A stretch of 32,357 nucleotides of DNA from a virus. The notes below the pieces were generated by a model. It had not been told where the DNA came from and made no database searches. It worked only from the letters and a program-made list of their open reading frames with translations. The stretch spans positions 1 through 32,357 of the IMG/VR virus record IMGVR_UViG_3300029263_000344. One strand, 5' to 3'. Position numbers and translations under genes: made by a program. Each line of letters begins with the position of its first letter. Positions within the stretch are counted from its first letter, which is position 1. Below, in pieces: positions 3,401 through 22,800 of this stretch.

Positions 3401-4326
3401 TACTTTCCGTTTTTAAAAATTTTGTTAGTTTCTTTTATTTCATTATCTTCAACATACCTAGATATGTTATATGGTATTTGTATTTTATTGTCTGTTGCTA
3501 AATTTAAGTCTGTTAAGTCCACATTTGTATCTAGTGGATTTTCTACGGTGTAGACATTACTACTTAGTAATTCCAACGTTTCTGGTTCACAATTTTGTGG
3601 TGTTAATTGTTTTTTGTAATCATACATTATCTCCCCATTATTTAAATCCTTAGGTTTTAAAGTTAGATAAGTTGTTTTTAGTTTTATATCTTTAGGTTGT
3701 GTTGTAATTTGTTTTACCGGATTAATTGTTATCACATCCCCCTTCATAATCCCAGTTTTATCTAAATTTACCTTAAACCCCAATGAATGAACATATTGTT
3801 CACACTTTTCTACGAAAATATCCATATCAAAAGAAATGGTGTTTATTGTATTTTTTCTAAGTTTAATACCGGGTATAATCATTTGAATTGCGTGAGATTT
3901 TCCACCAATAATCTTACCGAAAGGTTTTATACTACCTTCTGTTAAGTTAGTACTAAAATAGTTAGGGTGACTTAGGAAAGCTCCTGCTTGTGTATTAATA
4001 ATTTTTTCAAAACCTAAATTACCTTTAGAATTTCTGAAAATTTCTAATATTAAAGGAGTGTTAAGTGTGGTAACCAAATTATTAAAATTATTAAATTCTA
4101 ATAGTTTTTCATCAAAATATAGAAATGTTCTTTGTACGTTATTTTCTACTTTTACAATGATATCTACGGGGTAAATAGTTTTATAAACGAAGTTAAATGA
4201 ATTTCTTTTACTTATTACTTCTTGTTGGTTTGCTGTATTACTAATATTACCAGAAATAAAAAAGTTAAACTTTATTTCTTCACCTAAAACCCTCAAATCT
4301 ATTTTTGACCTATATATTTTTTCCAT
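493..4326 (-). CDS. Large virion structural protein (tail/baseplate region) with Cys-rich C-terminus
   Basis: A 1277-residue protein with an ATG start 11 bases after the preceding stop. I do not recognise a named family over the full length. The first ~350 residues look like mixed beta-rich structural sequence. Around residues 445-470 there is a His-rich block (GYYHVHPEKGAMVG, then AEHTDKSHD) of a kind I recall in phage structural proteins, though I cannot verify this here. Residues about 480-900 are Ser/Thr/Asn/Tyr-rich beta-type sequence, typical of tail components. The C-terminal ~200 residues are Cys-rich. They include CNYYCKCG, NECGEC and two short units (YSCNDGLCF with ATFEECASQC, and YWCESVGKCI) that resemble the Cys modules of the 2558-residue protein, separated by a Gly/Pro linker. 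The likely role is a distal tail or baseplate-attached host-recognition protein, inferred from the neighbours. Confidence 0.85.
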   Translation of the reverse strand: MEKIYRSKIDLRVLGEEIKFNFFISGNISNTANQQEVISKRNSFNFVYKTIYPVDIIVKVENNVQRTFLYFDEKLLEFNNFNNLVTTLNTPLILEIFRNSKGNLGFEKIINTQAGAFLSHPNYFSTNLTEGSIKPFGKIIGGKSHAIQMIIPGIKLRKNTINTISFDMDIFVEKCEQYVHSLGFKVNLDKTGIMKGDVITINPVKQITTQPKDIKLKTTYLTLKPKDLNNGEIMYDYKKQLTPQNCEPETLELLSSNVYTVENPLDTNVDLTDLNLATDNKIQIPYNISRYVEDNEIKETNKIFKNGKYIYPLNWVNEMQNNEVFADADTCYSLKFATKTQLQSFIDKLKSQQIGSVETYLTNNNVGVSEIKPRTYSRLSQWVERSSLNSFNDVRFSYDTYGGINSIIICPNKECVVGPEKIGTEKGLYTSGNEYNLSNGENYVGYYHVHPEKGAMVGAEHTDKSHDSLKALYTIAPISANSANDFCFSTYNKKSNYEVYSGFTVTSEDSNETNKTYDIQLSAASFSAETIIPISNIETQTKMSLIGDPTLQYRPYTFSEAYGSNDGTLIFNESDVDNYLTYSAITSGVYRFTYKAYLNIEYTDTKWCQYLETAYPSGFTKTYPNNDYEIKRLINTSLIQAGMGEKETVGVDTDFVFNSGEKYRNCYSGREKYVCTDTPTNTGIINFNFKASIIKGSSTGGTGTTLTQFQVLRSRESDGLANDYLTLDVDNNDLTTSGMNSCVLSSMTSSTIFHKQIPVTLDTGFINLISGQTIQLRYETDWTSTSKGNFYDLSGGATAIRINLGHKLDMSGRTLEAPYYRGVKASTAVLDKKLFFDSTKESLPFELKVGGATKTVRLNGTLYLSDSECGNIKIPYVDNSNFNKLTFLDSTAPDSKLVWDVTTEIPTNRWQGMIESNTIKDYVLSTKSNYSMTAMKDNGVFCFYMPTYNSDEYGGKCDFNFPQLTQSYVIHNKFKNYYGNVLEHFIVVTPDCGFHRPCYGTKPKSTYDIIHKTTPADWKVVNLNRKLNIKGKEVNIVSAFSQYKPEPETNESKTKCNYYCKCGQELASTLKLDPIYGITNIFKDLQVNECGECIMKAQEYCFSLNKKCEAKLMGGCAKENVYIQQVINNLNQQVTPYTSTLYSKGIEGGKPVEIIEGGPKGLSTQGTGPSGGPREIPTVLQTRYSCNDGLCFKDPKGGYATFEECASQCINIINPPENTPIYVSNDTEEKKDKEAGYEYKINPSLADSSKAPGICNEGYYWCESVGKCISDKEPCKN

Positions 4327-4337
4327 AATAGTATTTT

Positions 4338-7300
4338 TTAGTATCCACCACCACCACCTCCTGATGTTCCACCACCTCCTGATGATGTTCCACCACCACT
4401 AGAATAACTACTAGCACCACCACTGTTAGTATTAGTTGTGGTATTCGTGGTTACACTACCCCCACCTCTTGGGGTTGTGTTAGTCGAGTTAGGTGTGGTT
4501 GTTGGGTTATTATTATTATTATTTAAATCATAAGTCTTAACCCACCCTAGATTTTTCACACCAAAATCTTTTAACCCGTACACACATAAAAGGTTATCCG
4601 TACTTCCTTGTTTTGTAAAGATTGGTGTGGATGTGAATTTTCTTTTATTACTATTAAATTCTCTTGCTAATATTTTTGTTTCATTAGTTACCAACTCACT
4701 TCCAGATATTAGAGAAATTTTATCTATATCATATGCCGAAGCGTAGGTGGATATTGGGTTGATTGTGTTTCCAGTTAATATGTTGTTATAGTATAGCGTA
4801 TTAATTTTTGGTGAGGTCGGTGGTGCGTTAAAACTCATCATCCTAGCTTGGAAATGTGATGCTGGGTATGACGTATACCCTGTCGGGTTTACTGTGAAGT
4901 TTGTTGTGTACCCACTACTGTATGGGGTCCCTGACATGGAGTAACATCTATATACAAATTTGTCTCTGTGGAAATCTGAATTTTCTACCTTAACACCACT
5001 GGTCCATAATGTAGTTGCTGGAACCATTTGTTCAATTATCTTTATCCAATAATCCCCCATTGACTGAGCGTAGTCTACCATCTTAGTGTACGTATACTGA
5101 TTATTAGCACCACAACTCATTTTTAGATAATCTAAATACATTTGTTGTAATACTGGATAACCCCCCGTTTTACCATCGTTGATTGTCATCCTATTTTTAA
5201 CATCTATAAAGTATTTCCAAAAATTATCTCTAAACACTTTAAAGTCTAATTTTTTAGCGTTGATTTGTGGGTTGGTTGAGTCCCAGGTACCACCACTAGT
5301 CGGGTATGGTGGTGGTAGTGTCCCACCACTAAACATACAATTATGTAAACTGGATTGCCTCCAAACATCATAAGTTAATCCTTGGCCAATATTTAAATTT
5401 AGGTCAACATTTTTTACATTTAAAACTAGTTTTTCGTGACTGGTTTGGTAGTACGCACTTCTCCAATACCTATCATTAAAACTATATTGTCTGGTTTCGT
5501 CTTCAACAGAGCATCTATTTTTTTGAAACATCTCAACATACCTAATTCTACTTATAAGGTATTTTCTCCATAGTGGGTTTGTACCGGCTGCGGTCAACTC
5601 TTCAAACTTTTTTATTAATTTTTCTTTTCTTCTTTCTAGTCCACCACAAGTGTCATGAAAAACATGATTTTTAAAATTATTTGGGTCACCAGTACCTAGA
5701 CTAAACATTGCCATGTCTGGTTCTATATCTGGTCGGTATATGTCTTGACCTATTTCTACCCAAGATTTTTTATCGTCTATTATTCTTTTTAACCCAAAAC
5801 CAAAATACATATGTGGGAATCTCCTAAACCTATCTAAGTATGGTGCTTTAGGGTCGTTAGAAAGTATTCCCGTCCCCCAAAATCCACCCCAAGTAAAGTT
5901 ATTAAACTTAGTTACAATACTCGGACTACACCCACTTAGTATTGATTGTTCTTGGTTTATGATTAATTCTGATTTATGTTCTTCCGTCCTTTCAAACCAA
6001 CCGGCTCCTCTCTGAAAAAAGAAATTGTTTGTTATTCTAGGTACTTTTGGGTACCCGTCATTGTTTATGGGGTAGTCTGACTCTACGAATGGATTTATAG
6101 TTGTTCCAGTAACATAAGTAAAAGAAGAAAATGGTACACTGTATTTAATTACTTTAGTAGTGTAAGCTCCACCTGAAATACTACTCCAAGCATTATTAAA
6201 TTTATTTATATCTACCCTAGCATCCGCTAAAACTACATATTCGTTAAATTCTACTAAAGCTTCTGGGGCACCTAATAAACCCAACATAAACTCTATGGAT
6301 TTTCGAGTACCTTTAGATTTAAATAGGTATCCTGTGTTAAGTAATATCCTTCTGTACAATTCAATATCTAATTCTGCTGGTGTGTTACTAATACTTGTAC
6401 CCGAATATTGTGGTGCACTAATACCTAGAACATTATCTAAAAAGTTGTCATTATTAAGTGTACTTGGTGTTGACCAACCTAAAGTTCTAGCGAAATTTTT
6501 AATTAATTCGTTTGGTATGTTGTTTTTACTATCGTAGGTTACATTAGTCATGTAAGCTATACCGTCAACAAAAGTCTTAATTTCATCAAAACTTCTACCA
6601 TATATTTGTAGGGTTTTTTCTATTTTTTGGTCTACCGTATCAAATTCTTTAAGTACTGGAGATGTTAAAAATCTAGATACCAGATTTGTTTTTTGAGTGT
6701 CTAGTTCCGCACCTAAATCTGCTAATTGGGTTAGGTACTCGGTGTAGGCACTAGTAGTTATGTCTAAATTAATTTCGTCCTGTTTAGTCCAAGTAACTAA
6801 TGTGTTGTCATAGTAAGTACCGCCAGCACTGGACTCTTTTATTAATTTAAAATTAGCTGTGTACTCTGGTACCACATCTCTATTCATTAAAAATTTATCT
6901 ACATAATTAAAATTTTTAAATGCGTTATCACTTTCTAGTTTGTTTGGCTTTATAAAAAATGTTTCGGTGGTGGTTGTAGCACATAAGACCAAGTTCTTAA
7001 ATGGGTTACCCTCCACAGTAAAAGTTAAAAATCCTGTTGTTGTTGTTTGTGGTTTTAGGTTTATTACCTTATGTTCCACCTCACCTATCCCACCCCCAAT
7101 AGTTAAAACATAATTATTATATTCTGTGGTTAAATTCCTTAATTTAGATACAGTACCGTCAGCTACTTTAATTAAAGTATCCGACCCATAACCGAACATT
7201 TCTAAATTATTTAAGATTTGTTCTTTACTAATGGGACTGTTTAGTAATTCACCATTAGTTGTAAATTCTATTACGAATGGGTTTGATATGTGGTCAACAT

Positions 7301-7766
7301 TAACCTTAAATGTTGTTTGGTCTGTCCCTGTATTATAAATTATATTGTAAGCGGTGGTATTCCCACTCATATTTAAAGAATTTACACCATCAATAAATAA
7401 AGCTGCGGGGAAAAAATTAACTATGTTTTGTGTTGATACACTTAGTCTCTTTTTTAATGAACCGTACAGGACTAATTCAGATATATTACTTGTATCTGTG
7501 TTTATGTATACTTGGAAATTATTCTTTGTAAAATCTTGTGCTGTTTTTAAATCACCAAAATCTAGCGATTCAAGTGTGATTGGGTTTGAGAATCCTTCTA
7601 GTTTTTGATTGGTGGATAAACTTCTAGTGTATTCTTGGCCAATAGAAAAATTACCCATAGTCATTTGTGATGAACCATCGGTAATTTGGTTACCAACTAG
7701 GTTGTCACTAAAGGTATCTCCTCCGTGTCCTGGTGCTGGTGGATATCTAAATCTATTACTAGCCAT
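4338..7766 (-). CDS. Tail/baseplate protein with P2 gpI-like region and glycine-rich C-terminal tail
   Basis: A 1142-residue protein with an ATG start six bases after the preceding stop. Residues about 370-505 look like the phage tail protein I (P2 gpI) pattern: an acidic helical stretch, a LGW-type segment (ARTLGWS), then ELYRRILLNTGYLFKSKGT and a helix ending MLGLLGAPEA. Near residues 905-925 the sequence IIEQMVPATTLWTSGV resembles the end of such domains in long phage tail proteins. The gpI family builds the baseplate periphery, so this should be a baseplate component linking to fibres. The gpI part is embedded in a protein several times longer than P2 gpI (about 176 residues). The last ~45 residues are Ser/Thr/Gly low complexity ending in six glycines and a tyrosine, preceded by an Asn run. 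The gpI match is by eye only. Confidence 0.85.
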   Translation of the reverse strand: MASNRFRYPPAPGHGGDTFSDNLVGNQITDGSSQMTMGNFSIGQEYTRSLSTNQKLEGFSNPITLESLDFGDLKTAQDFTKNNFQVYINTDTSNISELVLYGSLKKRLSVSTQNIVNFFPAALFIDGVNSLNMSGNTTAYNIIYNTGTDQTTFKVNVDHISNPFVIEFTTNGELLNSPISKEQILNNLEMFGYGSDTLIKVADGTVSKLRNLTTEYNNYVLTIGGGIGEVEHKVINLKPQTTTTGFLTFTVEGNPFKNLVLCATTTTETFFIKPNKLESDNAFKNFNYVDKFLMNRDVVPEYTANFKLIKESSAGGTYYDNTLVTWTKQDEINLDITTSAYTEYLTQLADLGAELDTQKTNLVSRFLTSPVLKEFDTVDQKIEKTLQIYGRSFDEIKTFVDGIAYMTNVTYDSKNNIPNELIKNFARTLGWSTPSTLNNDNFLDNVLGISAPQYSGTSISNTPAELDIELYRRILLNTGYLFKSKGTRKSIEFMLGLLGAPEALVEFNEYVVLADARVDINKFNNAWSSISGGAYTTKVIKYSVPFSSFTYVTGTTINPFVESDYPINNDGYPKVPRITNNFFFQRGAGWFERTEEHKSELIINQEQSILSGCSPSIVTKFNNFTWGGFWGTGILSNDPKAPYLDRFRRFPHMYFGFGLKRIIDDKKSWVEIGQDIYRPDIEPDMAMFSLGTGDPNNFKNHVFHDTCGGLERRKEKLIKKFEELTAAGTNPLWRKYLISRIRYVEMFQKNRCSVEDETRQYSFNDRYWRSAYYQTSHEKLVLNVKNVDLNLNIGQGLTYDVWRQSSLHNCMFSGGTLPPPYPTSGGTWDSTNPQINAKKLDFKVFRDNFWKYFIDVKNRMTINDGKTGGYPVLQQMYLDYLKMSCGANNQYTYTKMVDYAQSMGDYWIKIIEQMVPATTLWTSGVKVENSDFHRDKFVYRCYSMSGTPYSSGYTTNFTVNPTGYTSYPASHFQARMMSFNAPPTSPKINTLYYNNILTGNTINPISTYASAYDIDKISLISGSELVTNETKILAREFNSNKRKFTSTPIFTKQGSTDNLLCVYGLKDFGVKNLGWVKTYDLNNNNNNPTTTPNSTNTTPRGGGSVTTNTTTNTNSGGASSYSSGGGTSSGGGGTSGGGGGGY
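4351..4389. repeat. Short tandem repeat coding the Gly-rich C-terminus
   Basis: Two near-identical units, CCACCACCTCCTGATGTT (4351-4368) and the same with an extra GAT (4369-4389), stand side by side and continue degenerately to about 4405. They encode the TS-plus-glycine run at the end of the 1142-residue protein. A nearby run of ATT triplets (about 4507-4524) encodes its Asn tract. Such triplet-phase repeats allow in-frame length change by slippage. Confidence 0.7.
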
Positions 7767-7772
7767 AAGTTG

Positions 7773-8681
7773 TTAAACGTTTATTGTGTTAAATGTCTTA
7801 CTGAAATCTATATTATTACCTCTATTTGCTCTAATTTCGTATAATTGGTCGTTAAATTGGTCTCTAACTTCATATAAGTTATATTGTTGGTATATGTTAT
7901 TACTAAAGTCGTATAGGGTGTAGATTCCATCATCTATCGATTTAGACTGGTTACCGTAAAGTGCTATAGCTAATGTATCAAAGTCGTGGTCCACCATTTC
8001 AACGTCTAGTACTACTGGGTTGAAAAATGTATTTGTTATGATGACTTTTTGTCCTGGTTGACCTATAAATGGGATAGCGTTAGGGTTGTTGGATGGTGCA
8101 CTTGTAGGTGTTAATGTACAAAACACTAAATTAGTTTCTGTATTTGTGTATGTATACCTAGGTGCTATTTGATTTGGGTTGGTTAGATTTGCCGCTACTG
8201 GTTCACAATAAAAATTAGACGTTACCAACCTAAAAAAGTTATGTATTTTTTCACCGTTGGCCTGTAAATATTCTATTCTATAACCAACTAAGGAGTGTGG
8301 TTTAAATCTACTTCTATACGCTGCTGGTACATTATTTAAATCAAAAACTAAACCTTTTACGTTTGGTAAAGATGCTAGTATACCACAATCTATAATGGTT
8401 GTTCTTATTTCAACAGGTCTAATGTAAATTGTATAAATTCCTTTTGCCGCAAATACGTTTGATGGTAGTTGTAAGTCGTACAGTCCACCTAAAATCTCAA
8501 CACCATTTGCCCCACCTGTATTATTTTGGTGGTAGTGAGGTGTTAGTAGTGTGGTTGCTGGTAATTGTGAAACTACAAAATTAGATGTTGCGTCCCTATT
8601 AGGGGTGTAGTGCACAATAATTTGTACATCATCTGGAAGTACATCTGCTGGTCTTTTTATTCCGTATGCTCCTAATGCCAT
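7773..8681 (-). CDS. Putative tail/baseplate structural protein (302 aa)
   Basis: A full-length 302-residue ORF whose ATG lies two bases after the stop of the 73-residue gene. I do not recognise a family. The sequence is beta-rich, with few charged residues in the first half and no signal peptide or membrane segment. The C-terminal third is Tyr/Asn/Asp-rich (DDGIYTLYDFSNNIYQQYNL). Placement between small tail genes and the gpI-like protein, with tight spacing, points to a virion component made with the tail module. Whether it is a wedge, hub or fibre protein cannot be told from sequence alone. Confidence 0.75.
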   Translation of the reverse strand: MALGAYGIKRPADVLPDDVQIIVHYTPNRDATSNFVVSQLPATTLLTPHYHQNNTGGANGVEILGGLYDLQLPSNVFAAKGIYTIYIRPVEIRTTIIDCGILASLPNVKGLVFDLNNVPAAYRSRFKPHSLVGYRIEYLQANGEKIHNFFRLVTSNFYCEPVAANLTNPNQIAPRYTYTNTETNLVFCTLTPTSAPSNNPNAIPFIGQPGQKVIITNTFFNPVVLDVEMVDHDFDTLAIALYGNQSKSIDDGIYTLYDFSNNIYQQYNLYEVRDQFNDQLYEIRANRGNNIDFSKTFNTINV

Positions 8682-8683
8682 TT

Positions 8684-8905
8684 TTAAGGTTGTTTATTTA
8701 TTTTATAAAACCCATAACCATGCAACTCTAGTTCACCCATATTAGGTGTTTGCCCTAGTCTTTGGGGTTTTTCAAAGACAGTTATTTTTCCTCTTTCAAT
8801 AAATATGTTAGACCTTGTTTCCGGTCTTTCACAAACATTCATTAAAACCTCCTCTTTTGTTAAAGGGGGGATACAACCATTTCTAAAAATTTTTTTAAAT
8901 CCCAT
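8684..8905 (-). CDS. Small conserved-looking hypothetical protein (73 aa)
   Basis: A 73-residue ORF with ATG at 8905 and stop two bases before the next gene. It follows one of the few real gaps in the window (33 bases), which holds a TATTTATA motif on the coding strand. The protein is basic at both ends and has two cysteines (CIPPLT and NVCERPETR); I recognise no domain. It is accepted as a gene because it fills the space between two genes without overlap, has the same strand and codon character as its neighbours, and no rival ORF exists here. Function unknown; it may be a small tail-assembly or minor virion protein. Confidence 0.6.
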   Translation of the reverse strand: MGFKKIFRNGCIPPLTKEEVLMNVCERPETRSNIFIERGKITVFEKPQRLGQTPNMGELELHGYGFYKINKQP

Positions 8906-9526: not shown

Positions 9527-12500
9527 TTATGCGTGGATTGATGATACTGGACTAATTGATGATGAACTACTTGATGTACCACCACAGGCTTGATTGGTAC
9601 TGGTTCCTCCACATGGTGCCCAAATTGAGTTCCAACTGGATGCGTTTACATAATACGTACCTGTGTTGGGGTCATTATTCGTTATGTGCCCTATACCACA
9701 AGCTGGTGGGTTCATACTTTTACTTGCATTACCAAACTCTACATTTTTTTGTGGTGTTTCTCCCATACGACGTGCTAAAGGTCCATTAGCTATCGGTATT
9801 GGTTCAATACAGTTATTCCCATCCCAACCATATTCACATGCACAACACCAACAACAGTTATCACCAGTACCAAGTGGGTCCACATCGTATATACACTCAC
9901 CTATGTTGAATGATAGGTATATTTGACCGGGTGGTCCATAACCAGGATTCCATGGGAAAGTAACTGGTGTTGGTAGGTCGTTTACTAAAGTTATGTCACA
10001 TGACTCACATACTGGTGATATTACATTTGTACATATTTGGTTTAGATTATTTACACCACAGGGTATCCACATCCCACCACCAATATTAATACCTACAATC
10101 GCACTTGGGTCTCCTTGTCCATCTTTACAGTATGCGGGTGAACTAGCATTAAATAATAATGTTTGTAAACTAGAACTAACAGCTAGAGCAGGACCCACCA
10201 CAAAAGGAGCACAACAATAACAACAGTCGTTGTCGTTGGGGTCAAACACACACTCATTAATCTGATAAGTAGTAGAAGAGTTGTAACTTCCCATATAAAT
10301 TGGTGCTCCGGGTAACTGTAGTAATTGGTCACAGTCGTCACACCCAAGTATAGTTGGGCAACAATCTATATTACACTGTGCTAACCCCCCATTTGCGGAA
10401 GTGTAGAACCCAAGTCCAGTTCCAGGGTCTAAACAAAGACACGAATGTGGGTCACAATCCCAACTAGGTTCTATTATTGTCCCACAACAAGAATTTATCG
10501 ATTGTTCACAAAGAAGTTGTGACGCGTATAAACCGTTTATATCTTCTTCACAATGACATTCACAGTAACACCTACAGAACGTAACCCCATCTGTAACCCA
10601 AAAATCACCACCACTCCAACTTGTACCTTCATTTATCCCCATTTTAACAAAACAAGTACCTACCGTATCAGTGTAGGCAAATGCTAACGACCAAGAGTTA
10701 GTAATGACTACCGAGTTAAGGTGGTCAATTACATCACCCCAACTAGTAAACCCATTTGCGTTAAATAGGGAAGCAGCAGGTCCAACAATATCAAGGTAGG
10801 TGGTGTAATTTAGACAATAACCATTACTATCTTCACACTGTGTATAACTATAATTAGGTGATGGTGGACATGGAGATGCATTACATAAACCCCCTCCGGT
10901 ATTTGACCAATAGTACAACCCAAATTGGTTGTAGTAGTCTGCTGGGTTGGATGTTACTGTAGCTACTATACCATTAAGTGCTTGGGTGTCATTAGCTTTA
11001 TTCCCTATATATATTTTATTTAACCCACATTGACTTTGTGCTAATGTCTCTGTACTACCACTTGTATCAATACAAGTCCATAATACTGGGTTAACTGGTG
11101 GTTCGTAACAACATGTAAGGGTATCCCCAGTACAAAGTGGTTCACTATTATACCCAACAACAGCAAGTGGGTCGTATATACAAGGACATACACCAGTTGA
11201 TTGGTTTGGGTTTCCAGTATCACAAACCCAGAAACCTGTTACAGGTGGGACACAACATGGTGTTGCATTCGCTGCTATATTACAAAGACTTAAATCAGAC
11301 CAAATACAATTAGCTCCACCAATACAAGGTTGGCAGTAACACGGCCCTGTTTGAGAACATTGACAACCAGAAGTTCCCGCGTATAGTGGGTGGGATGTGG
11401 TTTCTCCATAACTAAACATTTCCACCTTAGCATCATCTACACTCATACCTGTATTAAATGTTGGGGGTAGACTTAGGTTTGTGTTGACTAGATTTAATTG
11501 AGCGATAGCATCATTCCAATCAATGAATATCCCACTACATCCATTTGCTGCGTTATACATCGTATTAGTAATATGACAAGATGGCCTCGTCAAATATATC
11601 CCCCCATTACCACCGTATTGAGTTGTGTAATTAGGACAGGCTGGATTAACACCATTAGGGGAAACAGCCTTTTTACCATCAAATGGTGTATTTGGTGGGT
11701 AAGTTTGTACTATCCAATCAAAAAATATGAGACACCAAGCCCACGTATTAGTTCCTGCATTAATACCCTGATTTCCTGGCCAAGTTGTGCCTACTGGATT
11801 TATTGGAAATTCCATAGTTGCACTATCACAGAAGGTATATATTGGTTGTCCCGGAAGACATTCATACATAGATGTAGTAGCTGTGGTTGGACAACTTGTG
11901 TCACACGGTATCCAAACTAGTGGGTCACCATACTCTGTGACAAGACTGTTAGCTAGACTATTTGAGTAGAGGTTATACCATTCAGATGGGTTGTACAATC
12001 CTTGTGTTAGTGTAGAATACGCATCCACTACATTAACATAACAACAACAAGTACCACCACTACCACAATGTGTTACTGTATCACCTGAAAGATAGTTAAT
12101 CGTTGAGACCCATGGGTCGGATTGGATTATGGAACCGGCAATTGGTAGGTTAATACCAACAGTATGTAATGCCCAACCACCACCCATGTTTATTACTGGG
12201 AAGGTAACAGAACCCGCTAGTTGGCAGTCTTGACACGGACAACATGTTGTGTTGTTAGAACCTATACCACCCAACGAATAAGAGTTGTTCTGACAATCTA
12301 GTAAATTATTGTACGCTGTACAATTTGTATATGGTGGTGCTGCGGTATAAAATGGTGTCGTTATAAGACTACACTGACATGGGTCTGGTTGGAATGTCGG
12401 TCCTAAATCTGGAGTACATTCACCACATATAAAATTACATTCGTCTTGGCAGTCTGCAGGATTTCCAAATGGTCCATGTATACAACCCGCTGGCATTGTA

Positions 12501-15500
12501 CCCACAAAACTTACACACCCTAATGTTTCATCACAACACCATTCAGTGACTAATGGACAACAAGGGTAATTTGTTTGTGCGTTTACACAATCCTGTATAG
12601 ATATAGAACAATTAAAGTTATAAGGGTTTAAATCACACGTACAACTAACTACACTATCACAACAAAATCTACAAGCTTGTTGACAATCACTTTGACTTGC
12701 AAATCCTAACGCTGTACCAGTTGAGTATGGTGTGGATGTACCTCCTTGACCAAAAACTAAATTATCTGTCCAACTAATAAAAGGTGCTGTTGTTTGCCAT
12801 GCCTGTATCACACCTTCTTGAAAACAGTTAGATGTTGTTGCTGACTGACCAGCGTTAGTATCACAAAACCATAGTCCTGGAGTTGTACAATCACATTGGT
12901 TGGTGTTTTGGAAGCAGTCAAAAGCTGAGGAATGTTCTGGGAATAATCCATTAGGGTTATTTCCTACAAACTGACAAGTACCTAATGTGGTTGCTACATC
13001 ACATGCCCATTTACAGTTAGTGACACAATCACTTAAATTGGTATAGGCCGCTATACTATATAATATGTCCCCAGGAAAAACTTCAATACACCCTAGACCA
13101 TTTGTACCTGGTATTCCAGGGTTTAAAGAACTACACCAATCACTATCGTCACAATGAAATTTACTTCCAAGTGTTGAGCAGCAATCTAAATTAACTGGGG
13201 GTGGTAGTAGTATTGCTTGTTGGCAGGCCCATAGACTAAAAAATCCATACCAAGTGGACGTATTTGTGGTTAAACCGTTTATAACATCTTGTAACATAAC
13301 ACAAGCCGTAAAGTCGTCCGTTGGGTCTGCTGGTGTTGCATTTTCGTCACAATAACAACCTGATTTACAATGGTCTTGACAAGTACTAGCTGTGTAACAA
13401 TTTAATGCTGCTTCTGAACCAAATACATAAGAACAAGGTATTGGGTTTTGGACACAACCGTCTATATAATCACAACTATATGTGTCAGCTGATGGTGCCG
13501 AACATGGGTCACAACCTCCTGTAGTAGCACCACTAGGTGTGCTCCCACAACTTATCCACGCGTTTGGTATCCCATTAGGTGCATCTGGTCCCTCTGGAAC
13601 AAAGTAGTTACAATCGTAAAATCCTGGTGGTGTCCCTGTAAATGGGTTACTATATTGAGGTAAGTCACAATAATAACAACATGTACTAGGTGTACCACCT
13701 GGGTAGGATACATAGTCGTATAAAGTATAATCGCCACCTAAAGATACAAATACTTCTTGGTCGTTACCTTGACCACCCGTAAGTGGGTCACACGCACAAT
13801 CACAAGTTATTTCATCTGATACACACCCAGTTGGGTTATCTGCCACACACTGTGCCATAGTCCCATATATTGGTCCTAATGGAGTTGGTGGTGGATTACC
13901 ACCAACAACAGCAATATAGACACAAGGCCACCAAGGCCATGATGGGTCATATAAACCAGACATTGGGTCAAATATTTGTGCAGATTCGTCACATTCTATA
14001 TCACAACAACCTGTTGCTATACAACAAGCTGAAAAAGATTCGTAAGGTCCTCCAGGTGACCAACCATAACCACTAGGTAAAGCAACTGGGTTTGGCCAAT
14101 TGATACACTGACCATAACTTGTACCATCAGTCATATTTTCTAAACAATCAACACCACCCTCGGTTGGGCAGTTATCCTCACAATCTACTGCGTTAACAAA
14201 ACTTCCAAGGGGGTAGGAAAAATTAGAAAAATTAGGGTTAGCTCCAAATCCACTTAGTGGTACCAAAGCTGGGTCCACGTACCAATCAGATTCCCATGCT
14301 GGTAGTGGTGTTGGACACGGAGCTAAATTTTGACATGCTGTAGCTGACCCACTTAAACAAACCCAACATTCTGTTAAGGGTGGTTGACACCAATTACAAC
14401 AATCACCAGAAGTTGTGTACTGACCACAAGCATTGGTGTAACATGGTACACAAGCTGAACTACCTGGGAACCCGGTCCCACCACTACATGGTTGGCTCCA
14501 TGGGTCATAACAATCCCACCCACAAGGTCCTGGTATACCACTATTATTTCCTGGTGCTGTTTGACAAGATATTTCATCTGGAAAACCACCACCTACAATC
14601 TCTACGCATCCTTGGTCACAAAAATATTCCCAAGCTGCAAAATTACAACAAGCTGATATTCCTTGTAAAGAAACACCTAACTCACAATCACTTATCCCAT
14701 AATATGGGTCTAAGAATAACTGATTAAGATTTGCTGTTAATAGTGGTGTCGTTAAAACATAATTTGTCATTATAGTATAATAATCTGATGGTGCAACTGT
14801 AAAACATGAAACCTCTGAACAACATGGTGTAGCAGTTGGGGTTGTGCAGGACCACGCTATGGGATTACACCACGATTCACAGTCGGTCATTGATGAAAAT
14901 GTAACAGATAGTGGATAACCTACGTTATTGTATTGTGGGTGAGTATAATCTATTTCTTGACACCCAGGCATATCACAACCGTATTGATTTTCACAATGCC
15001 ACCTATCACTTACCGGACAATTACCATTATTATACGCTGTTACACAACCACCTGGTCCACCATAAAAAGTAAAACTGTCTGGTGTACTACCAGAAATCAT
15101 TTCACAAATATAAGGACCGGGACTTGCTAAATCTTGTGGACACACCCAACTTACACAGCCAACATAATCCCATAAATTAGAATTAGTCATTGCTGTGGGT
15201 ATTATACCTGTTGGTATACTAGTTATTGCTTGATAACAATTACCATCCGGACCATATATAAACTGTCCTTGTGTAAATACTTGTGAGTTATCCCACTGTC
15301 CAGCTATACCCACCGGACCCATAGGTGAGTAAGCGTTAAATACATTATATGGGTCAGCACAAGGTAAAGCACTTCCCGCTGGACAAGAAACACAATCAGG
15401 TGTACAACCTTCAAAAACATGCACATCAGCTCCAGTTGGGTTTAACCAAACTCCTTGGTACATTTGTGATGGCATGACACCAGCAAATGGGTCATTCAAA

Positions 15501-17203
15501 CCACTAGTACTTGTCTGTGTTATACCTAGTTCCGCAACAACTACATAACAGCAACAATCTTGTGGTGATACATCATAAACTATGTCACCTTGTACATAAT
15601 CAACGAAAGGTGACCAATTAGGTGGACTAGCGGGTGATAAAGTACTTATCATTTCTGGTTGGAGGGTGACCCTATTAATAAATTCATCTTTTGTTAAACA
15701 AAACTCACAGGTTTCCTCTGGACACTCAAAACAATCTTCACCACCAAAAGCTAATGAATTTAACCCACAACTAGTAGCAACAAAAATTGTAATTCCGTTT
15801 GGGAAGTCGTAAAAATCTATAGGTGTTTGTCCGTTTGCTGAAGAAATTGTATAACCAGTGTATAGTGCGTCAGCGTTAAATATTGAACCCATCATACCAG
15901 CTGTAATAGTATTTGTTATCGGGTCGACAACATCACCACCAACAGGTAGTGAAACAAATAACTCAAAACCGTTAGGTAAAAAACCTGGAGCTAATGTAGA
16001 TGGAGCATTACTATATGTAGAAAATATACCTACTGTACTATCAGTTATCCCAGTTAATTCAAAACAACCTATGGATGTACCACTATATTGATTTATGTTG
16101 GTACCAGAATCAAGTGGGTAATAGTTTGGTGAACCAAAAACACCGTATGTGCCATGATAAGCTGTAGATGTGAATAATGGTGCTAAGTAAACTGAAGGTA
16201 TCGGGTTAGGACCACTTAAATCTACTTGGTATGGGTCACCTCCTGGTGTACTAGGTGATAGTGGCCCTCCCATTCCAGCACCTGTAGGTGGTGCGGGGGA
16301 ATAAACTTGTGCTAATATTTGGTTATACGTTAAATTAGGCACTGTTATTCTTTGACTTACCGATGTAGGTCCCCATGGACCTTCATGTGTTATTGTTATA
16401 GAGTACTGTGATGCCACCACATATTCATAATCACTAGTAAGTGAGGGATATTGTAAATCTTCACAACAAGGGTACCCATTACCGTTAAGTGGTACAGAAC
16501 AATCACACTCACCCCAACTTATAGTGTATGGTGAGTTTTGGAACGCATTATACGAACCAAAATCTGTTGTATTATACACTTGAATTTTCATCCCATTACC
16601 TGTTGTGTTAGCAGTAAAAACAAAATTTGAGAATGTTTGTTGTTGGTCTACTCTGCCGTCCCAAACACTGTAATGACCAATATCGTTATAATCTTGTGTT
16701 AGTGTTAGTGGTATATTATATAACACACTATCTAGTGGGTCCAAACATTCACATATAGCAATACTTTCATCCCAAAAAGCATTTATGCCTTGTGATGACA
16801 ATGTTTGGTTTACGTTGGTGTTGGTTACATCATATATGGTACTTAATTCATTATAGCTATTTTGGTAAAAGGTACTGCCCGAAGTTAAAATAAGTCCTTT
16901 AAATAATACGTAATTATATCCCTCTGGGTTGGTACAATTAGTGGGGCTAATACTTAATGGTGCGTCCCATAATATCACACATGGTTGTGTTGGTGAGCAA
17001 TCTCTTAGTTCGTTTGGAAAACTAGACATCACACCACTTTCTAAAGCGTTAACCACTTCTGACCCAGTGGAATCATACATTGTCACACCAGAACAATTAG
17101 TACTTAGATTTATTGGGTAGAAGTTTGTTCCTCCGGTACAAGGTAGAGACCAGGTACTTGCTGACGCTGTGGTTCTTCTTATGGTAAACTTTTGTACGTC
17201 CAT
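9527..17203 (-). CDS. Giant Cys-rich modular tail-region protein (2558 aa)
   Basis: A single uninterrupted 7.7-kb ORF, the largest in the window, starting ATG three bases after the previous stop. It is rich in Cys (about one residue in ten where counted), Gly, Pro, Ser, Thr, Asn, Tyr and Trp and very poor in Lys/Arg until the last ~100 residues. Two repeat types alternate. One is a Cys module, roughly aromatic-x-C, G-x-C, then Y/F-x-S/T followed by D/E-C-x(3)-C, seen many times (e.g. LSDCVTNCKWAC, STCQDHCKSGC). The other has W, Y..G..V/I, CC(C)Y and a closing W..C; copies lie at about residues 530-594, 637-683, 1698-1767, 2303-2382 and 2418-2531. The second type recalls the aromatic spacing of small carbohydrate-binding modules (family 5/12-like), but this is weak. 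No signal peptide or membrane segment is visible. I infer a long fibre or virion surface protein that binds host or environmental polymers; no named family is claimed. Confidence 0.85.
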   Translation of the reverse strand: MDVQKFTIRRTTASASTWSLPCTGGTNFYPINLSTNCSGVTMYDSTGSEVVNALESGVMSSFPNELRDCSPTQPCVILWDAPLSISPTNCTNPEGYNYVLFKGLILTSGSTFYQNSYNELSTIYDVTNTNVNQTLSSQGINAFWDESIAICECLDPLDSVLYNIPLTLTQDYNDIGHYSVWDGRVDQQQTFSNFVFTANTTGNGMKIQVYNTTDFGSYNAFQNSPYTISWGECDCSVPLNGNGYPCCEDLQYPSLTSDYEYVVASQYSITITHEGPWGPTSVSQRITVPNLTYNQILAQVYSPAPPTGAGMGGPLSPSTPGGDPYQVDLSGPNPIPSVYLAPLFTSTAYHGTYGVFGSPNYYPLDSGTNINQYSGTSIGCFELTGITDSTVGIFSTYSNAPSTLAPGFLPNGFELFVSLPVGGDVVDPITNTITAGMMGSIFNADALYTGYTISSANGQTPIDFYDFPNGITIFVATSCGLNSLAFGGEDCFECPEETCEFCLTKDEFINRVTLQPEMISTLSPASPPNWSPFVDYVQGDIVYDVSPQDCCCYVVVAELGITQTSTSGLNDPFAGVMPSQMYQGVWLNPTGADVHVFEGCTPDCVSCPAGSALPCADPYNVFNAYSPMGPVGIAGQWDNSQVFTQGQFIYGPDGNCYQAITSIPTGIIPTAMTNSNLWDYVGCVSWVCPQDLASPGPYICEMISGSTPDSFTFYGGPGGCVTAYNNGNCPVSDRWHCENQYGCDMPGCQEIDYTHPQYNNVGYPLSVTFSSMTDCESWCNPIAWSCTTPTATPCCSEVSCFTVAPSDYYTIMTNYVLTTPLLTANLNQLFLDPYYGISDCELGVSLQGISACCNFAAWEYFCDQGCVEIVGGGFPDEISCQTAPGNNSGIPGPCGWDCYDPWSQPCSGGTGFPGSSACVPCYTNACGQYTTSGDCCNWCQPPLTECWVCLSGSATACQNLAPCPTPLPAWESDWYVDPALVPLSGFGANPNFSNFSYPLGSFVNAVDCEDNCPTEGGVDCLENMTDGTSYGQCINWPNPVALPSGYGWSPGGPYESFSACCIATGCCDIECDESAQIFDPMSGLYDPSWPWWPCVYIAVVGGNPPPTPLGPIYGTMAQCVADNPTGCVSDEITCDCACDPLTGGQGNDQEVFVSLGGDYTLYDYVSYPGGTPSTCCYYCDLPQYSNPFTGTPPGFYDCNYFVPEGPDAPNGIPNAWISCGSTPSGATTGGCDPCSAPSADTYSCDYIDGCVQNPIPCSYVFGSEAALNCYTASTCQDHCKSGCYCDENATPADPTDDFTACVMLQDVINGLTTNTSTWYGFFSLWACQQAILLPPPVNLDCCSTLGSKFHCDDSDWCSSLNPGIPGTNGLGCIEVFPGDILYSIAAYTNLSDCVTNCKWACDVATTLGTCQFVGNNPNGLFPEHSSAFDCFQNTNQCDCTTPGLWFCDTNAGQSATTSNCFQEGVIQAWQTTAPFISWTDNLVFGQGGTSTPYSTGTALGFASQSDCQQACRFCCDSVVSCTCDLNPYNFNCSISIQDCVNAQTNYPCCPLVTEWCCDETLGCVSFVGTMPAGCIHGPFGNPADCQDECNFICGECTPDLGPTFQPDPCQCSLITTPFYTAAPPYTNCTAYNNLLDCQNNSYSLGGIGSNNTTCCPCQDCQLAGSVTFPVINMGGGWALHTVGINLPIAGSIIQSDPWVSTINYLSGDTVTHCGSGGTCCCYVNVVDAYSTLTQGLYNPSEWYNLYSNSLANSLVTEYGDPLVWIPCDTSCPTTATTSMYECLPGQPIYTFCDSATMEFPINPVGTTWPGNQGINAGTNTWAWCLIFFDWIVQTYPPNTPFDGKKAVSPNGVNPACPNYTTQYGGNGGIYLTRPSCHITNTMYNAANGCSGIFIDWNDAIAQLNLVNTNLSLPPTFNTGMSVDDAKVEMFSYGETTSHPLYAGTSGCQCSQTGPCYCQPCIGGANCIWSDLSLCNIAANATPCCVPPVTGFWVCDTGNPNQSTGVCPCIYDPLAVVGYNSEPLCTGDTLTCCYEPPVNPVLWTCIDTSGSTETLAQSQCGLNKIYIGNKANDTQALNGIVATVTSNPADYYNQFGLYYWSNTGGGLCNASPCPPSPNYSYTQCEDSNGYCLNYTTYLDIVGPAASLFNANGFTSWGDVIDHLNSVVITNSWSLAFAYTDTVGTCFVKMGINEGTSWSGGDFWVTDGVTFCRCYCECHCEEDINGLYASQLLCEQSINSCCGTIIEPSWDCDPHSCLCLDPGTGLGFYTSANGGLAQCNIDCCPTILGCDDCDQLLQLPGAPIYMGSYNSSTTYQINECVFDPNDNDCCYCCAPFVVGPALAVSSSLQTLLFNASSPAYCKDGQGDPSAIVGINIGGGMWIPCGVNNLNQICTNVISPVCESCDITLVNDLPTPVTFPWNPGYGPPGQIYLSFNIGECIYDVDPLGTGDNCCWCCACEYGWDGNNCIEPIPIANGPLARRMGETPQKNVEFGNASKSMNPPACGIGHITNNDPNTGTYYVNASSWNSIWAPCGGTSTNQACGGTSSSSSSISPVSSIHA

Positions 17204-17206: not shown

Positions 17207-18076
17207 TTAATTTGTGATATATTCATAAAATTTTATTGGTCCGTTAACCGTTTCACCTAATGGTGCTAACAAAATACCAGTCATACCCGCAACGGAATTA
17301 TATGGATGTATGGTGTAGTTATATTTTGGTGTCGTATTACCTATTTCTATATTTAAAACAACTTGGTAATAAAAAAAGTCTTGGAAGTTGTAACTTCCTT
17401 GTATGGGTGTTGGTTCTTGATTTAGCATCCTCATAACACTACCTGTTTTTGCGTTAAAAAACTTACAAGTCATATAAAAAGTGTTACCGGTAAACAATTC
17501 TCTACCTTTTAACCATTGTAGGTAGTAATTTTCTGTCTGACCTACTGGTCCAGAAGACGCGGAAAAAGCTGGTACGTAAACATCATAAACTGGTGTTGAT
17601 ATACCTTCACTACGTTGGGCCCAATATTCTTCTGGGTCTTCGGATGGAATAATCACAACACTTTTTCTTCTACAATTATTACTAGGCATTATAGTGGAGA
17701 ACATTAGTTTTTGTTCTTCTCTTACCGGGGAATCGAAAAAATCGAATTTAAAAAAACTTTTAGTAAATGACTTTGCATCTCTAGATAGGTCTACATTCTT
17801 ATAATCTAAAATGTTAAAGTTGTTAACGTAAGTTGAGTTTACACCATCCCAAAAGTCAAATTCATAGTATATTTCAAAATCTGGTGCGTAGTTAGGTGTA
17901 TATCTAGTAGTCTCATAGTCTTGTATGTAATTTATATTATTTTGTAACTCAATCTCATCATGCATTTCTAATAGTTGTTCACGACCTAGTTCGTCAAATA
18001 TTTGACCTAACGGTATAGTGACTTTTTTATCACTAAGAGATGCTTTTATTTGTATTCTATTCACAGACATCGACAA
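17207..18076 (-). CDS. Putative tail/baseplate structural protein (289 aa)
   Basis: A 289-residue ORF whose start overlaps the end of the 598-residue gene by 20 bases, suggesting coupled translation. The N-terminus is charged and helical (IFDELGREQLLEMHDEIELQ). The rest is beta-rich with many Tyr/Phe/Asn residues, has a KSFFKFDFFDSP stretch, and ends in YEYITN. I see no enzyme motif, signal peptide or membrane segment, and no family I can name. Its place between two structural genes of the same operon implies a virion component. Confidence 0.75.
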   Translation of the reverse strand: MSMSVNRIQIKASLSDKKVTIPLGQIFDELGREQLLEMHDEIELQNNINYIQDYETTRYTPNYAPDFEIYYEFDFWDGVNSTYVNNFNILDYKNVDLSRDAKSFTKSFFKFDFFDSPVREEQKLMFSTIMPSNNCRRKSVVIIPSEDPEEYWAQRSEGISTPVYDVYVPAFSASSGPVGQTENYYLQWLKGRELFTGNTFYMTCKFFNAKTGSVMRMLNQEPTPIQGSYNFQDFFYYQVVLNIEIGNTTPKYNYTIHPYNSVAGMTGILLAPLGETVNGPIKFYEYITN

Positions 18077-19853
18077 ATTCTGAAACTACATTTATACTAC
18101 TAGAGCTATAACCAAACATAATAGGGTCTATTTTAAATTCTAAATTTAAATATGGGTAGTGTGCATCATTTAAATATGGATAATTAACACCATTATCACC
18201 ATCTTCAAAATAATCTAAAGGTAGAATTGGTCTCCACCTAAACGTCCCTTCTGATAAAGAATAAGTAGCGTACGGTGGTGTTGTAAATAGACTGTCTTCA
18301 TAACTTACAGTGGTGGATAATTTACGTATAGGTATACGATTATGTGGTTTGTACTTATATATTGATTTTATGTAGTCTGATGAACCTCCTGGATATTCAT
18401 ACATAGCGTCTCTATTAAATTGTAATGAGTGTTGGATTTCTGAAATAATCCTTTCTTTTAATTCGAATGGGTTATATTCTACAAACGCTCCTCGATATGT
18501 CGTCCCACTTAATGGTAATGGGTCTACCCCGTTTGTTGTATTTTGAAATAGGTTAGTTGGGTTAACATTGTTATCAACAAATGGGTCTATGTTACCATTT
18601 TTTCTAAAGTTCCATTCCCACCCATATCCTGTTGGTGAGTTGGCTGGTGCTTCATAGTGCCACATAAGATTTCTATTGACTTGGAAAATCGTTAAGTACA
18701 AGTCTGTTAGTGGTCTGTTTAAGTTGTCTTGGTAGTCGTCCACATCTATGTCTAGGTTTGTGTTCCATAAAAAAGATTTAAAGTCTTGTGTGATTACCGT
18801 TTTATCACCGTACCCATCTGGTGTTTTTTTAGATTTGTACACCCTACCTTTTTTATTATATATACCATTTTCAAAACCTGTCCTATCCAAACTGTAGTCT
18901 GATGAATTAGTGATTAGTCTATGAACGTGAGTACAGTATTGTGACCTAGTTTCACCAGTATTATTTATACTGATTATTCTTTGTATAACACATACTGAAT
19001 CTTGTGGTACTTCAGTTAAGTCAACACCTTTTGTATATACGTTGATAACATATTCTTCTGAGTTTACGTATTCGTTACCCAAAAAATCTACTTTAAATAA
19101 GTTCTGGGTTGTTGATACTAGTGGTCCGTTAATCGTTATATCAGTAATAAGATTTGTTAATCCCATGGGAACGATACTTGGGTTACTTTGTAACTCTATA
19201 AATTCCCCAGCATTTACTCCATGTGGTGATGCTGTAGTTATCCTTAAAACTTGTTTACCTTCTACAGTAGTTAGTTGGATACGAGCTGGAATACCGTCAC
19301 CACTACGAAAATTTATACCAATGGTACTACCAGTGTATCTCACATAAAACTCCATCCCTTGATTTTTATCACATTCAGAAACATAGGAAATGTATGTCAC
19401 CCAATTATCTTGGTAGGCGTTAACACTACTGTATTGTGAACTATTACTAGTGCCGTAACGATAAGGAGGCATAAAAGTAAATAAGTCAGATGGTGGTAAA
19501 CCTACACAGGGTGGTCCACTAAATGGTGTTACTACTGGTAATATAGAGATTGGGTCTGGACAACCAATAAAAGGTGGTGTAAAATACATATAATTTAATA
19601 TACGGTTTTCGTCTGTTTGTCCGGTTATGATGTTATTATATAAAACATCTATCTTACCATATGGTCTATATGTTGTAGAATAGTCTCTCTCAAAATCGAA
19701 CTGGTCTCTTAGATTTAAAACCAAGTTTCTATCACCTTCTATCATAGTACGTTGTTCACTACTCAAAAAAGGTTGTAGACTCATATCTTTATTCTGAGAA
19801 CCAGCAAATTTAGATTCACCCCTTACAATTCTTATATTTTTTTTATTACTCAT
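18057..19853 (-). CDS. Putative tail/baseplate structural protein (598 aa)
   Basis: A 598-residue ORF. Its ATG shares one base with the upstream stop (TAATG junction), so translation is probably coupled to the 1130-residue gene. It ends with TAG, showing that amber is a true stop here. Residues about 200-260 contain ITTASPHGVNAGEFIEL, a beta-strand pattern I associate with phage fibre and baseplate proteins in which an HG..aG..v turn recurs. The remainder is Tyr/Asn/Pro-rich structural sequence without membrane segments. I cannot assign a specific T4 counterpart; by position it follows the gp6-like and 1130-residue proteins, so a baseplate or tail-tip role is inferred. Confidence 0.8.
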   Translation of the reverse strand: MSNKKNIRIVRGESKFAGSQNKDMSLQPFLSSEQRTMIEGDRNLVLNLRDQFDFERDYSTTYRPYGKIDVLYNNIITGQTDENRILNYMYFTPPFIGCPDPISILPVVTPFSGPPCVGLPPSDLFTFMPPYRYGTSNSSQYSSVNAYQDNWVTYISYVSECDKNQGMEFYVRYTGSTIGINFRSGDGIPARIQLTTVEGKQVLRITTASPHGVNAGEFIELQSNPSIVPMGLTNLITDITINGPLVSTTQNLFKVDFLGNEYVNSEEYVINVYTKGVDLTEVPQDSVCVIQRIISINNTGETRSQYCTHVHRLITNSSDYSLDRTGFENGIYNKKGRVYKSKKTPDGYGDKTVITQDFKSFLWNTNLDIDVDDYQDNLNRPLTDLYLTIFQVNRNLMWHYEAPANSPTGYGWEWNFRKNGNIDPFVDNNVNPTNLFQNTTNGVDPLPLSGTTYRGAFVEYNPFELKERIISEIQHSLQFNRDAMYEYPGGSSDYIKSIYKYKPHNRIPIRKLSTTVSYEDSLFTTPPYATYSLSEGTFRWRPILPLDYFEDGDNGVNYPYLNDAHYPYLNLEFKIDPIMFGYSSSSINVVSEFVDVCE

Positions 19854-22800
19854 TATATAACGGTGTTGGATAGTTCTTCGTCAACATAAAGTCTAATAAA
19901 TCGGTTATAAGCTGTTTCTCCTGGTCTTAGTCCAAAGTAATAGAATAGTGGTTGAGAAAATAACATTGATGGGCCTGTTACTTCTGACATCGGTGGGTAT
20001 GCGTCTCCTACTGTACCTGGTTCAGCAAAACCATTTAAAGCTCCTACCGTGTTTTGGTAGTCACCGGAATTAATAACTACTGTCCCACCCGTACTTGTCC
20101 AACTATATGAAGCTGATTGATACCCACCCCTTGTGTACTGCCAATCATTATTTTCATTACCAAAACCACTAGACCCGTTTACCCTCCAAATGTAAAAAGG
20201 GATTATTTGTGAACTACCAGATAATTCGTAAGAAACACAATCTATTAGGTCAGCTCCTGTCATAATGGTAGGTGTACTAGCGGTAAATAAATGAGGTCTC
20301 CATTGTATATCATACCCAGCGTTAACATTTATTGCGTAGTCCACATAAGTACCTGTTTCATTTATGTTGTTTGGTATTTCGTATTCTATATCTCCATCAG
20401 TCACCAAAAGTGGTGGTCCTGCCGGTACACTACAATCACAAGATGTGGTTGATACGTTAGTTTCATAACCAAAAACACCCAACATAGAATTTTGCATTAG
20501 TGCTTGTGCCATATCACCACCTATTTCTTTTTCAGGTCTAGCGAATAAATCCCCTAACGACATATTTGGTTGTGACGCTTTAAGATTGTAAGCGTCTGAA
20601 ACTAGGTCAGTTATGTCTTGGAATGTGGTACTACCTATTTGGTCTGTTACGGAACAATCCTCAGCAAATTTTTCATCTAAACATATTTGTTGTATACATT
20701 GATTTCTAGAACCCATATCTACAATTGTGGTTGGGAATAGTATGTGTCTTTCCATATCTCCTGATGAATGGTAATCACTACTACTTGAACCACCCCTTAC
20801 ACCATCGTCATCAGCTATAAATTTACCTGTAGTTGCTGATAGGTATCTAAATGGTGTGCACCTATAATAAAAAGTATGTTCAGATGGATGTAAATAAACT
20901 ACTTTTTTACAATATCTGGTACCAGAGGTATCGTAGGTGTCAGCGGCAGCATCATAAGATAATTTAGCTCTGAACTGGAATTGGTATAGAAATCCGTTTA
21001 CCCAAGCATTTTCCCAAAAATAATTCATTACACCATCACATAAAGCTGAAAATATTTTTTCTCTTCTGTACCACTCCCTAATTAGTACATCATTTGTGTT
21101 AAAGTCCAAACAGGCAGCATTTAAACACATACATTTTACATAACATCCACCTCCGGCTGCCATGTCATTACCTGCGGCTGTAGAATTACCGAATATGTCA
21201 GGTGGTGGGTTACTTGTAGTTGAGTCGTACCCAAAACTATCTGGACAGCAAACCACATCTCTTTCAACACCAAAAATATTAGTTGATACTCCACAGTCGT
21301 CGTTAGTCCAATTATAATTGTCATAAGCATTTTGCATGTCACTATTTGGGTTGGTCCTACACATGCAACTTTCACATTCTGGGTATTTTTTCTGCCTTAG
21401 AGTAAATAAGGTGAATCCCATTGGTATCCCAAAAGTTTTACATTGTGGTTGACACGTATTGGTCCACGATAATTGACCACACAAAGTAGGTGTGTTTTGC
21501 ATATTTAAGAGACTAGCAAGCCACCCCCATCCATTTATCAAATAATAAAGCAAACAAATAGCAGCAAAAATTATAAGAAATGGAATTAGTATTATTCCAA
21601 GTATACTAGCAATAAGACCAAACACTACGGATAACATTCTATAAATAACGTAAGTAAATAATAGAATAAACTGATTTAAAATTATAATACCTTTAAGTCT
21701 TTTTACAGCACTATTGACTGGGAAAAACATTGCTGAAGTTGAGCATTGTTGGTCTTGTTCCGGTAATATTTCTTTAATACCTAAAAATTGTCTCCTTCCG
21801 TTATGTTTAACGTGGTCATGGAATTGGGAAAATGTATATACCCTATTAAAGGACATGTCGTAGAATAAATCTGTAGCTGGTGGTATAAGATTTGTTTGAG
21901 CCCATGGGTGGTAATCGTGATATTCTAAAGAAAAACAATATGGGTCGTAGAATTTACTATTACCTTCCCCATCTTTTAAATTTTGACCTATCTCGGGCCA
22001 ATCACCATCCGTATCTGATGCGGTCCCAAATTCTCTAATTTGTGGTACTAAGTGTGAACCCCTTCTTCTTTGCCTAGCAGTACCTGAGGATTGTTCTGGT
22101 CTTACCCTAAATCTACATCTAGTCCTTGTCGCAACCCCTTTTGTTGGGTCGTTTGATTTTACTAAATTACCGAACTCGTCAGTAATTACGTGGTCTAGAT
22201 TCATAGGCATATGAACTAGAAAAGCACCTGTCTCATCAATCACCCTACCACCATCATCAAAATAAAATCTTTCCATTACCGGCACTTGTCCACCACCCAT
22301 AGCGGAACCATCATAAGGCCAAGGTGGAAAAGCTTTCGCATCTTCTTTAAAGAATGGTGTATACCTAATACAATCAATTATTCCGGGTTGCGTAACTAAA
22401 CTACACAATTCACCCATATGTCTTTTTGGTCTACATCTTTTATTGACTGAGTCTTTATCTGTGTCGGTAGCTGTACTACCCATAAAGACAGCTGTTGGTT
22501 GTATTTTAATCCCTGAGTTATTTAAGTCAAAATCTACTCTTGTTATTGCTGCGTTACAAAATTCTTCATCACCCCAAAAAGGTCTAACATCTATAGATTT
22601 TTGTTGTCCTACAATTTGTGGTAAATTGTCTAACGCTGAGTCATCCCTAAATCTAGTACCGTCAAATTTAGAGTCTGGGAATCCTAATTGTTTAAAATCT
22701 TCAGGCAACATAGAAAAACAACCTATATCACTCATATCAACATCCATAACTAGGGTTTGGTCACCAACAGGCACACCATATATCATAAAATCACCAGACT

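Follow-up and report, generated by a model that had tools for sequence, protein, structure and literature searches.

The 32,357-nucleotide stretch of viral DNA analysed here (IMG/VR virus record IMGVR_UViG_3300029263_000344, positions 1 to 32,357; hereafter the window) encodes a Cys-rich giant of 2,558 residues. It belongs to an unannotated family of such tail-cluster proteins, which is both real and widespread. Adhesins, that is, phage receptor-binding proteins of unusual composition, are the most likely role of the giant family, and we consider it fairly probable that the giant of the window (P0001) serves a T4-type myophage as its adhesin, in the form of a side fibre or a tail tip arm docked on the baseplate, with a stalk stapled by disulfides and a variable tip that binds the receptor.

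The giant gene and its baseplate cluster

The giant is encoded by a single open frame of 2,558 codons with an ATG start, which runs on the minus strand from 17203 to 9527 through a region where the plus strand is crowded with stops, and which adjoins its neighbours without a real gap, as is the case in the rest of the cluster. The 7.7 kb frame of the original prediction was exact, with only the minus strand omitted. In pairs with enough changes, dN/dS for residues 1-1780 is 0.05-0.25, which indicates purifying selection and therefore a functional gene. The order of genes at the locus is gp25, gp6, 1130 aa, 598 aa, 289 aa, giant, 73 aa, 302 aa, 1142 aa and 1277 aa, and is common to the 18 loci tested from five phage groups, barring locus ends or unmatched genes.

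25190..25651, minus strand: baseplate wedge gp25-like gene (PHROG 261, E 1.1e-16)
23347..25188, minus strand: baseplate wedge gp6-like gene (PHROG 6, E 6.7e-16)
17207..23245, minus strand: three conserved genes upstream, 1130, 598 and 289 aa (order in 18 loci)
9527..17203, minus strand: giant Cys-rich, Lys/Arg-poor protein, P0001 (open frame and relatives)
493..8905, minus strand: conserved downstream genes of 73, 302, 1142 and 1277 aa (order in 18 loci)
694..780, minus strand: one Cys unit close to the C-terminal end of the 1277-aa tail-cluster protein (profile search)

The gp25 and gp6 homologues identify a T4-type contractile tail, and bear out the earlier placement of the giant in a phage tail cluster. 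In T4, gp9-gp12 (baseplate pin and short tail fibre) lie on the matching side of the gp25-gp6 block; their likeness to the giant is one of position in the gene order, with no sequence relation detected.

The composition of the giant is extreme. It has a molecular mass of 273 kDa, a pI of 4.05 and 8.5% Pro, and its 200 Cys make up 7.8% of its residues, with 13 in residues 1-480 and 187 (9.0%) in residues 481-2558, so that the earlier count of roughly one Cys in ten is fair for the C-terminal part. Lys and Arg were described as almost absent, and indeed amount to 1.1% (28 residues), against 6.6-16.7% in the other large genes of the window (at least 250 aa), in which Cys is 0.2-2.9%; mean Cys in the remaining ORFs of two relatives' contigs is 1.1-1.2%. 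As Phe, Trp, Tyr and Leu together are kept at 13-20% in each region, the depletion of Lys and Arg is either specific or otherwise caused. The many CC and CCC runs that had been remarked upon are present (22, including two CCC) and are explained by the abundance of Cys, since the Cys-rich part holds 21 against a shuffled mean of 15.3 and a shuffled maximum of 25; as such, they were rejected as a special feature of the protein.

Several neighbouring genes are of interest in their own right. Near residue 540, the 1130-aa baseplate-cluster protein (19853-23245, minus strand) has a strongly hydrophobic stretch of the membrane type, which all eight relatives examined also have; such a stretch is unusual in a baseplate protein and may perhaps contact the host membrane. 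The C-terminal end of the 1142-aa tail-cluster protein (4338-7766, minus strand) is a long low-complexity tail rich in Gly, Ser and Thr. A 194-aa protein (8939-9523, minus strand) has a nucleotidyltransferase-like GS...WDIDMII motif and no Pfam match; no corresponding ORF was seen in relative L003, and it is present in the near twin of L003, G002/L004. A 79-aa DUF5522 protein with the pattern CC..C..C (25672-25911, minus strand) lies directly upstream of the gp25 gene. An FKBP prolyl isomerase is encoded by the phage (30901-31335, minus strand), and the relative contig G001 carries cyclophilin and DnaJ genes; that these proteins, given the Pro content of the giant, help with its folding is speculation. 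The class II (B12-type) ribonucleotide reductase (26082-27986, minus strand) has its best match, at 67% identity, in the enzyme of Microcystis phage Mel-JY01, whereas the tail-cluster proteins match that phage weakly or not at all. No Cys-rich giant was seen in the 115 kb inspected of the 190 kb of Mel-JY01, and tblastn against its complete record gave no match to P0001. The host may be a member of Bacteroidota and the source waters may be mostly marine, to judge by the names of the contigs and by one gene of the relatives that resembles a Bacteroidota lipoprotein or secreted protein.

Domains and modules along the chain

The regions and modules of the giant, all on the minus strand, are as follows.

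15764..17203, minus strand: conserved N-terminal region low in Cys, presumed to dock on the virion (residues 1-480; dN/dS 0.05-0.15)
16319..16636, minus strand: predicted PKD-fold domain (residues 190-295; Foldseek and VIA on predicted model)
11834..15763, minus strand: conserved Cys-rich stalk (residues 481-1790; Cys invariance and paired Cys changes)
15404..15628, minus strand: CBM5/12-like module with CCC insertion (residues 526-600; hhalign 96%)
15134..15304, minus strand: possible CBM5/12-like module (residues 634-690; weak, hhalign 19%)
13367..15001, minus strand: 545-residue stretch without Lys or Arg (residues 735-1279; composition count)
13547..13762, minus strand: CBM5/12-like module (residues 1148-1219; hhalign 94%)
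12428..12556, minus strand: one Cys unit, predicted hairpin and helix (residues 1550-1592; AF2 pLDDT about 79-84)
11891..12124, minus strand: CBM5/12-like module (residues 1694-1771; hhalign 96%)
10049..10297, minus strand: possible CBM5/12-like module (residues 2303-2385; hhalign 36%)
9530..11833, minus strand: hypervariable C-terminal third, presumed receptor-binding tip (residues 1791-2558; identity and dN/dS)

Residues 190-295 are predicted to adopt the PKD beta-sandwich fold, which is the shared core of the family. In the AF2 model from which this comes (residues 1-690, 23 sequences, mean pLDDT 55), Foldseek matched the segment to PKD domains with probability 1.00, and VIA gave Z 9.2 to 7kv7, a Bacteroides surface glycan-binding protein, and Z 8.4 (4l9d) and 8.2 to Vibrio PKD1 domains, the PKD1 superposition being 2.3-2.4 A over 77-78 residues. 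At the level of sequence the likeness to PKD proteins (PF00801, PF18911) is weaker: relative L040 matches PKD_4 with E 0.0017, P0001 itself has no match and relatives reach at most 18.8 bits against a gathering score of 27. P0001 also has WGEC where most relatives outside the giants keep WGDG, and its remainder is mostly not PKD. Structure prediction of parts, as had been proposed, yielded this fold, although the models were poor overall (mean pLDDT 55, and 66 for residues 1340-1600).

Further along the chain, the giant contains at least three CBM5/12-like modules, and perhaps two more. The hhalign values listed above were obtained against a profile built from the eight units of other family members only, and control tiles of the giant scored below 1%. 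A profile of 11 family units, comprising those eight and three from the window, the unit at residues 526-600 among them, was compared with the PDB, where it matched chitin deacetylases in their CBM5/12 domains (E 1.4e-6) and 1ed7, the module of chitinase A1 (E 0.0059). The family modules have in common with CBM5/12 (PF02839) the core W-x(5)-Y-x(2)-GD-x-V-...-Y, and differ from it in a CC or CCC preceding the core Tyr, in more Cys beyond it and in lying under the curated threshold, the best score being 19.2 bits in L046 against a gathering score of 26.2 bits, with none for P0001. They may be described as putative modules of a sugar-binding type.

Between these modules lie small Cys units of the form [WY]-x-C...G-x-C...G-x-[YF]-x-[ST]-x(3)-C-x(3)-C. 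The repeated aromatic, Gly and Cys pattern that had been noticed by eye is real, as profile search detects five to nine copies in each full-length relative. BLAST of P0001 against itself returned the self match alone, and profile iteration was needed to find the units. A profile built only from distant relatives scored 13.6-18.0 bits in L004 and L008 against a shuffled maximum of 4.0, and just 4.7 bits in P0001 against 3.7 for shuffled sequence, which implies that the units of P0001 are strongly diverged. The AF2 model of residues 1340-1600 consists of repeating strand-strand-helix, and for residues 1550-1592 the top PDB matches were nearly all Kunitz domains, with Z values of at most 3.6, not significant, and a Foldseek E of 1.7. 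The predicted hairpin and helix and the [YF]-x(5)-C-x(3)-C spacing, which is that of Kunitz F45-C51-C55, recall the core of Kunitz/BPTI. In contrast, the N-terminal half with its two Cys is missing and there is no sequence-level match; most units have four or five Cys in about 35-45 residues rather than the six of a Kunitz domain, which are bonded 1-6, 2-4 and 3-5, and the resemblance is only a lead.

A size series at one locus

The original prediction could not place the giant in a known family. In agreement with this, Pfam, PHROGs, NCBIfam and PDB sequences gave no match covering it, and a full-length match to a characterised tail fibre family was looked for and not found; in terms of its parts, the predicted PKD core and the CBM5/12-like modules now place it partially. 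No match was found in 50,697 isolate-phage records, and scans of bacterial and archaeal genomes found no cellular relative at the sensitivity of the scan, and hence pointed to no host. Relatives are found in IMG/VR, the first four at 62-83% identity, then others at 34-40% and many more with only the N-terminal core in common, and one IMG/VR scan recovered the family at 74 loci. All of the relatives come from uncultured contigs.

The smallest of 51 complete members has 362 residues and no Cys, and the largest has 2,991 residues, of which 8.5% are Cys (0 to 8.6% across the family), with Cys content rising with length (Spearman rho 0.93) and Lys plus Arg falling (-0.72). All short members share the residues of P0001 from about 164 onward. 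The best viral structure match, BFVD A0A6J5L9U6 (364 aa, uncultured Caudovirales phage; Foldseek E 1.6e-13), annotated as 'PKD domain-containing protein', looks like a small form of the family. Protein sizes sort along a tree of gp6 and the 302-aa protein, in which the giants form one side of a branch with 100/100 support; the direction of growth, from small to giant, is inferred from a midpoint root. It looks, on this sequence comparison, as if the giants evolved by lengthening of a small Cys-free protein that was kept at the same locus in related phages. Medium-size members (L046 9455-12412, L047 9698-12316 and L043 9380-12175) have weak dockerin or EF-hand-like stretches, as well as 'GC.D..A.NYN..AT.DDGSC' repeats of a type found in secreted bacterial proteins.

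Cysteine conservation, the variable end and the proposed role

Cys is the most conserved residue of the giants: in an alignment of 12 full-length members, 178 Cys columns are free of gaps and 147 of them (83%) never vary, against 24% for Trp, the second most invariant residue. Where Cys varies it tends to do so in neighbouring pairs, such as 1363/1370 and 1713/1719. In residues 480-1790, 21 of 44 variable Cys columns have, no more than 40 columns away, a partner present in exactly the same sequences, against 12.8 after shuffling (p 0.008), and in residues 1-1790 the figures are 26 of 50 against 14.8 (p 0.0005); Gly, Pro, Trp, Tyr, Asp, Asn and Thr have no excess of partners beyond the range of shuffles. 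The signal is only moderate because the sequences are related and represent few independent lineages. Odd numbers of Cys in several full-length relatives imply that some are free or paired between chains. This combination of conserved and pairwise changing Cys is that of a disulfide-rich extracellular-type protein, and favours disulfides over metal sites in the giant, the two having been offered as alternatives in the original prediction. In the ORF lists of two contigs, both probably incomplete, no Erv- or DsbA-like oxidase was seen by eye, and a glutaredoxin-like gene is present.

Agrobacterium phages Milano and 7-7-1 are documented to have disulfide networks in their virions (PMC10811340, PMC12796354), so that the statement that phage virion proteins are rarely so Cys-rich holds for the degree of enrichment rather than for the principle. 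These were the only precedents found in a largely open-access literature on Cys-rich phage fibres. In Milano the sheath, baseplate and fibres are disulfide-linked (PMC10811340), and in both phages, which have contractile tails, disulfides join the tail spike and short tail fibres to the baseplate and sheath (PMC10811340, PMC12796354). Cys makes up about 1.4% of their proteomes and 2.1% of the structural proteins of Milano, against 7.8% in P0001 alone; no sequence relation to the giant was seen.

The C-terminal third of the giant is hypervariable. L003 and L004 share 96-100% identity in residues 1-1600, 84-92% in residues 1601-1800, 19-50% in residues 1801-2000 and 29-90% thereafter to the C-terminus; L006 and L008 are identical through residue 1000, 94-100% identical to residue 1800 and 62-93% after it; and the genes flanking both pairs are 95-100% identical. 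In two close pairs, dN/dS is 0.70-0.86 over residues 1781-2300 against 0.00-0.16 upstream of 1781. A conserved arm with a hypervariable end is the pattern expected for a receptor-binding tip and is consistent with the surface fibre originally envisaged, and the giant has the sequence features of an adhesin in being a tail-module gene product with a conserved N-terminal part and a variable C-terminal tip; hypervariability by itself would fit other exposed proteins as well.

These data suggest a model in which the N-terminal 500 or so residues, including the PKD domain, would dock the giant on the baseplate, and residues 481-1790 would be a stalk assembled from CBM5/12-like modules and small Cys modules and held by dozens of disulfides. 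In the cytoplasm the Cys would remain reduced, and the disulfides would close once lysis exposes the protein to oxic water. The stalk, acidic and free of Lys and Arg, would withstand extracellular proteases of the trypsin type, and the last 770 or so residues, fast-evolving and still framed by Cys, would recognise the host surface. The sequence analysis establishes the gene and its family, the conserved gene order and the size series at that locus, the prediction of a PKD fold, the profile similarity to CBM5/12, the invariance of Cys and the variable tip, and from these we infer virion presence, disulfides, post-lysis oxidation, receptor binding and protease resistance.

The Cys clusters might instead be cytoplasmic binding sites for zinc or another metal, giving a metal-stapled fibre that folds before lysis and without disulfides, a reading that would suit phage assembly in a reducing cytoplasm and the frequent CxxC (20) and CxC (22) motifs, and with which Cys invariance is in itself equally compatible. 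We regard it as unlikely, since variable Cys change in nearby pairs and not in fours, His is just 0.7%, about 50 four-Cys sites would be required and profile searches gave no match to a zinc-finger family. The depletion of Lys and Arg, with 545 residues free of both, the many Cys and the acidic pI could also belong to a protective coat or decoy that sheaths the baseplate or tail against proteases, its variable part evading recognition with no binding to a receptor. The CBM5/12-like and PKD modules are, however, of an adhesion type, and variation is restricted to the C-terminal third, as in adhesins with variable tips, which makes such a coat quite improbable. A composition like that of secreted proteins, in a giant known only as a gene sequence, would also fit a non-virion protein that is set free at lysis and acts outside the particle, for example as a matrix protein. 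We think this very unlikely, because the gene has a fixed place within the baseplate cluster in all groups, the small forms have the core domain of the family at this locus too, the highest hydropathy in the entire protein is only 1.48 (at residue 2331) and the N-terminus, MDVQKFTIRR, is not signal-like.

The usual picture of a phage attachment protein is a trimer, beta-helical or triple-stranded, whose folding takes place in the cytoplasm. The AF2 models of the giant contained no trimeric fibre fold, and if the adhesin reading holds, the family would represent another solution, in which disulfides hold together a very long chain of sugar-binding-type and Cys modules such as occur in secreted proteins. 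It is conceivable, and we propose it only tentatively, that tail adhesins of at least 2,400 residues, which reach their mature fold only by oxidation outside the cell after lysis, evolved stepwise from a Cys-free baseplate-cluster protein of 360 residues by the addition of Cys-stapled CBM5/12-like and Kunitz-like mini modules and the loss of nearly all Lys and Arg. The family occurs widely among IMG/VR contigs, yet searches of isolate phages and annotation libraries did not find it, and its graded natural series at one fixed locus, from 362 to 2,991 residues and from 0 to 8.6% Cys, makes both the growth of adhesins and the time of their folding testable.
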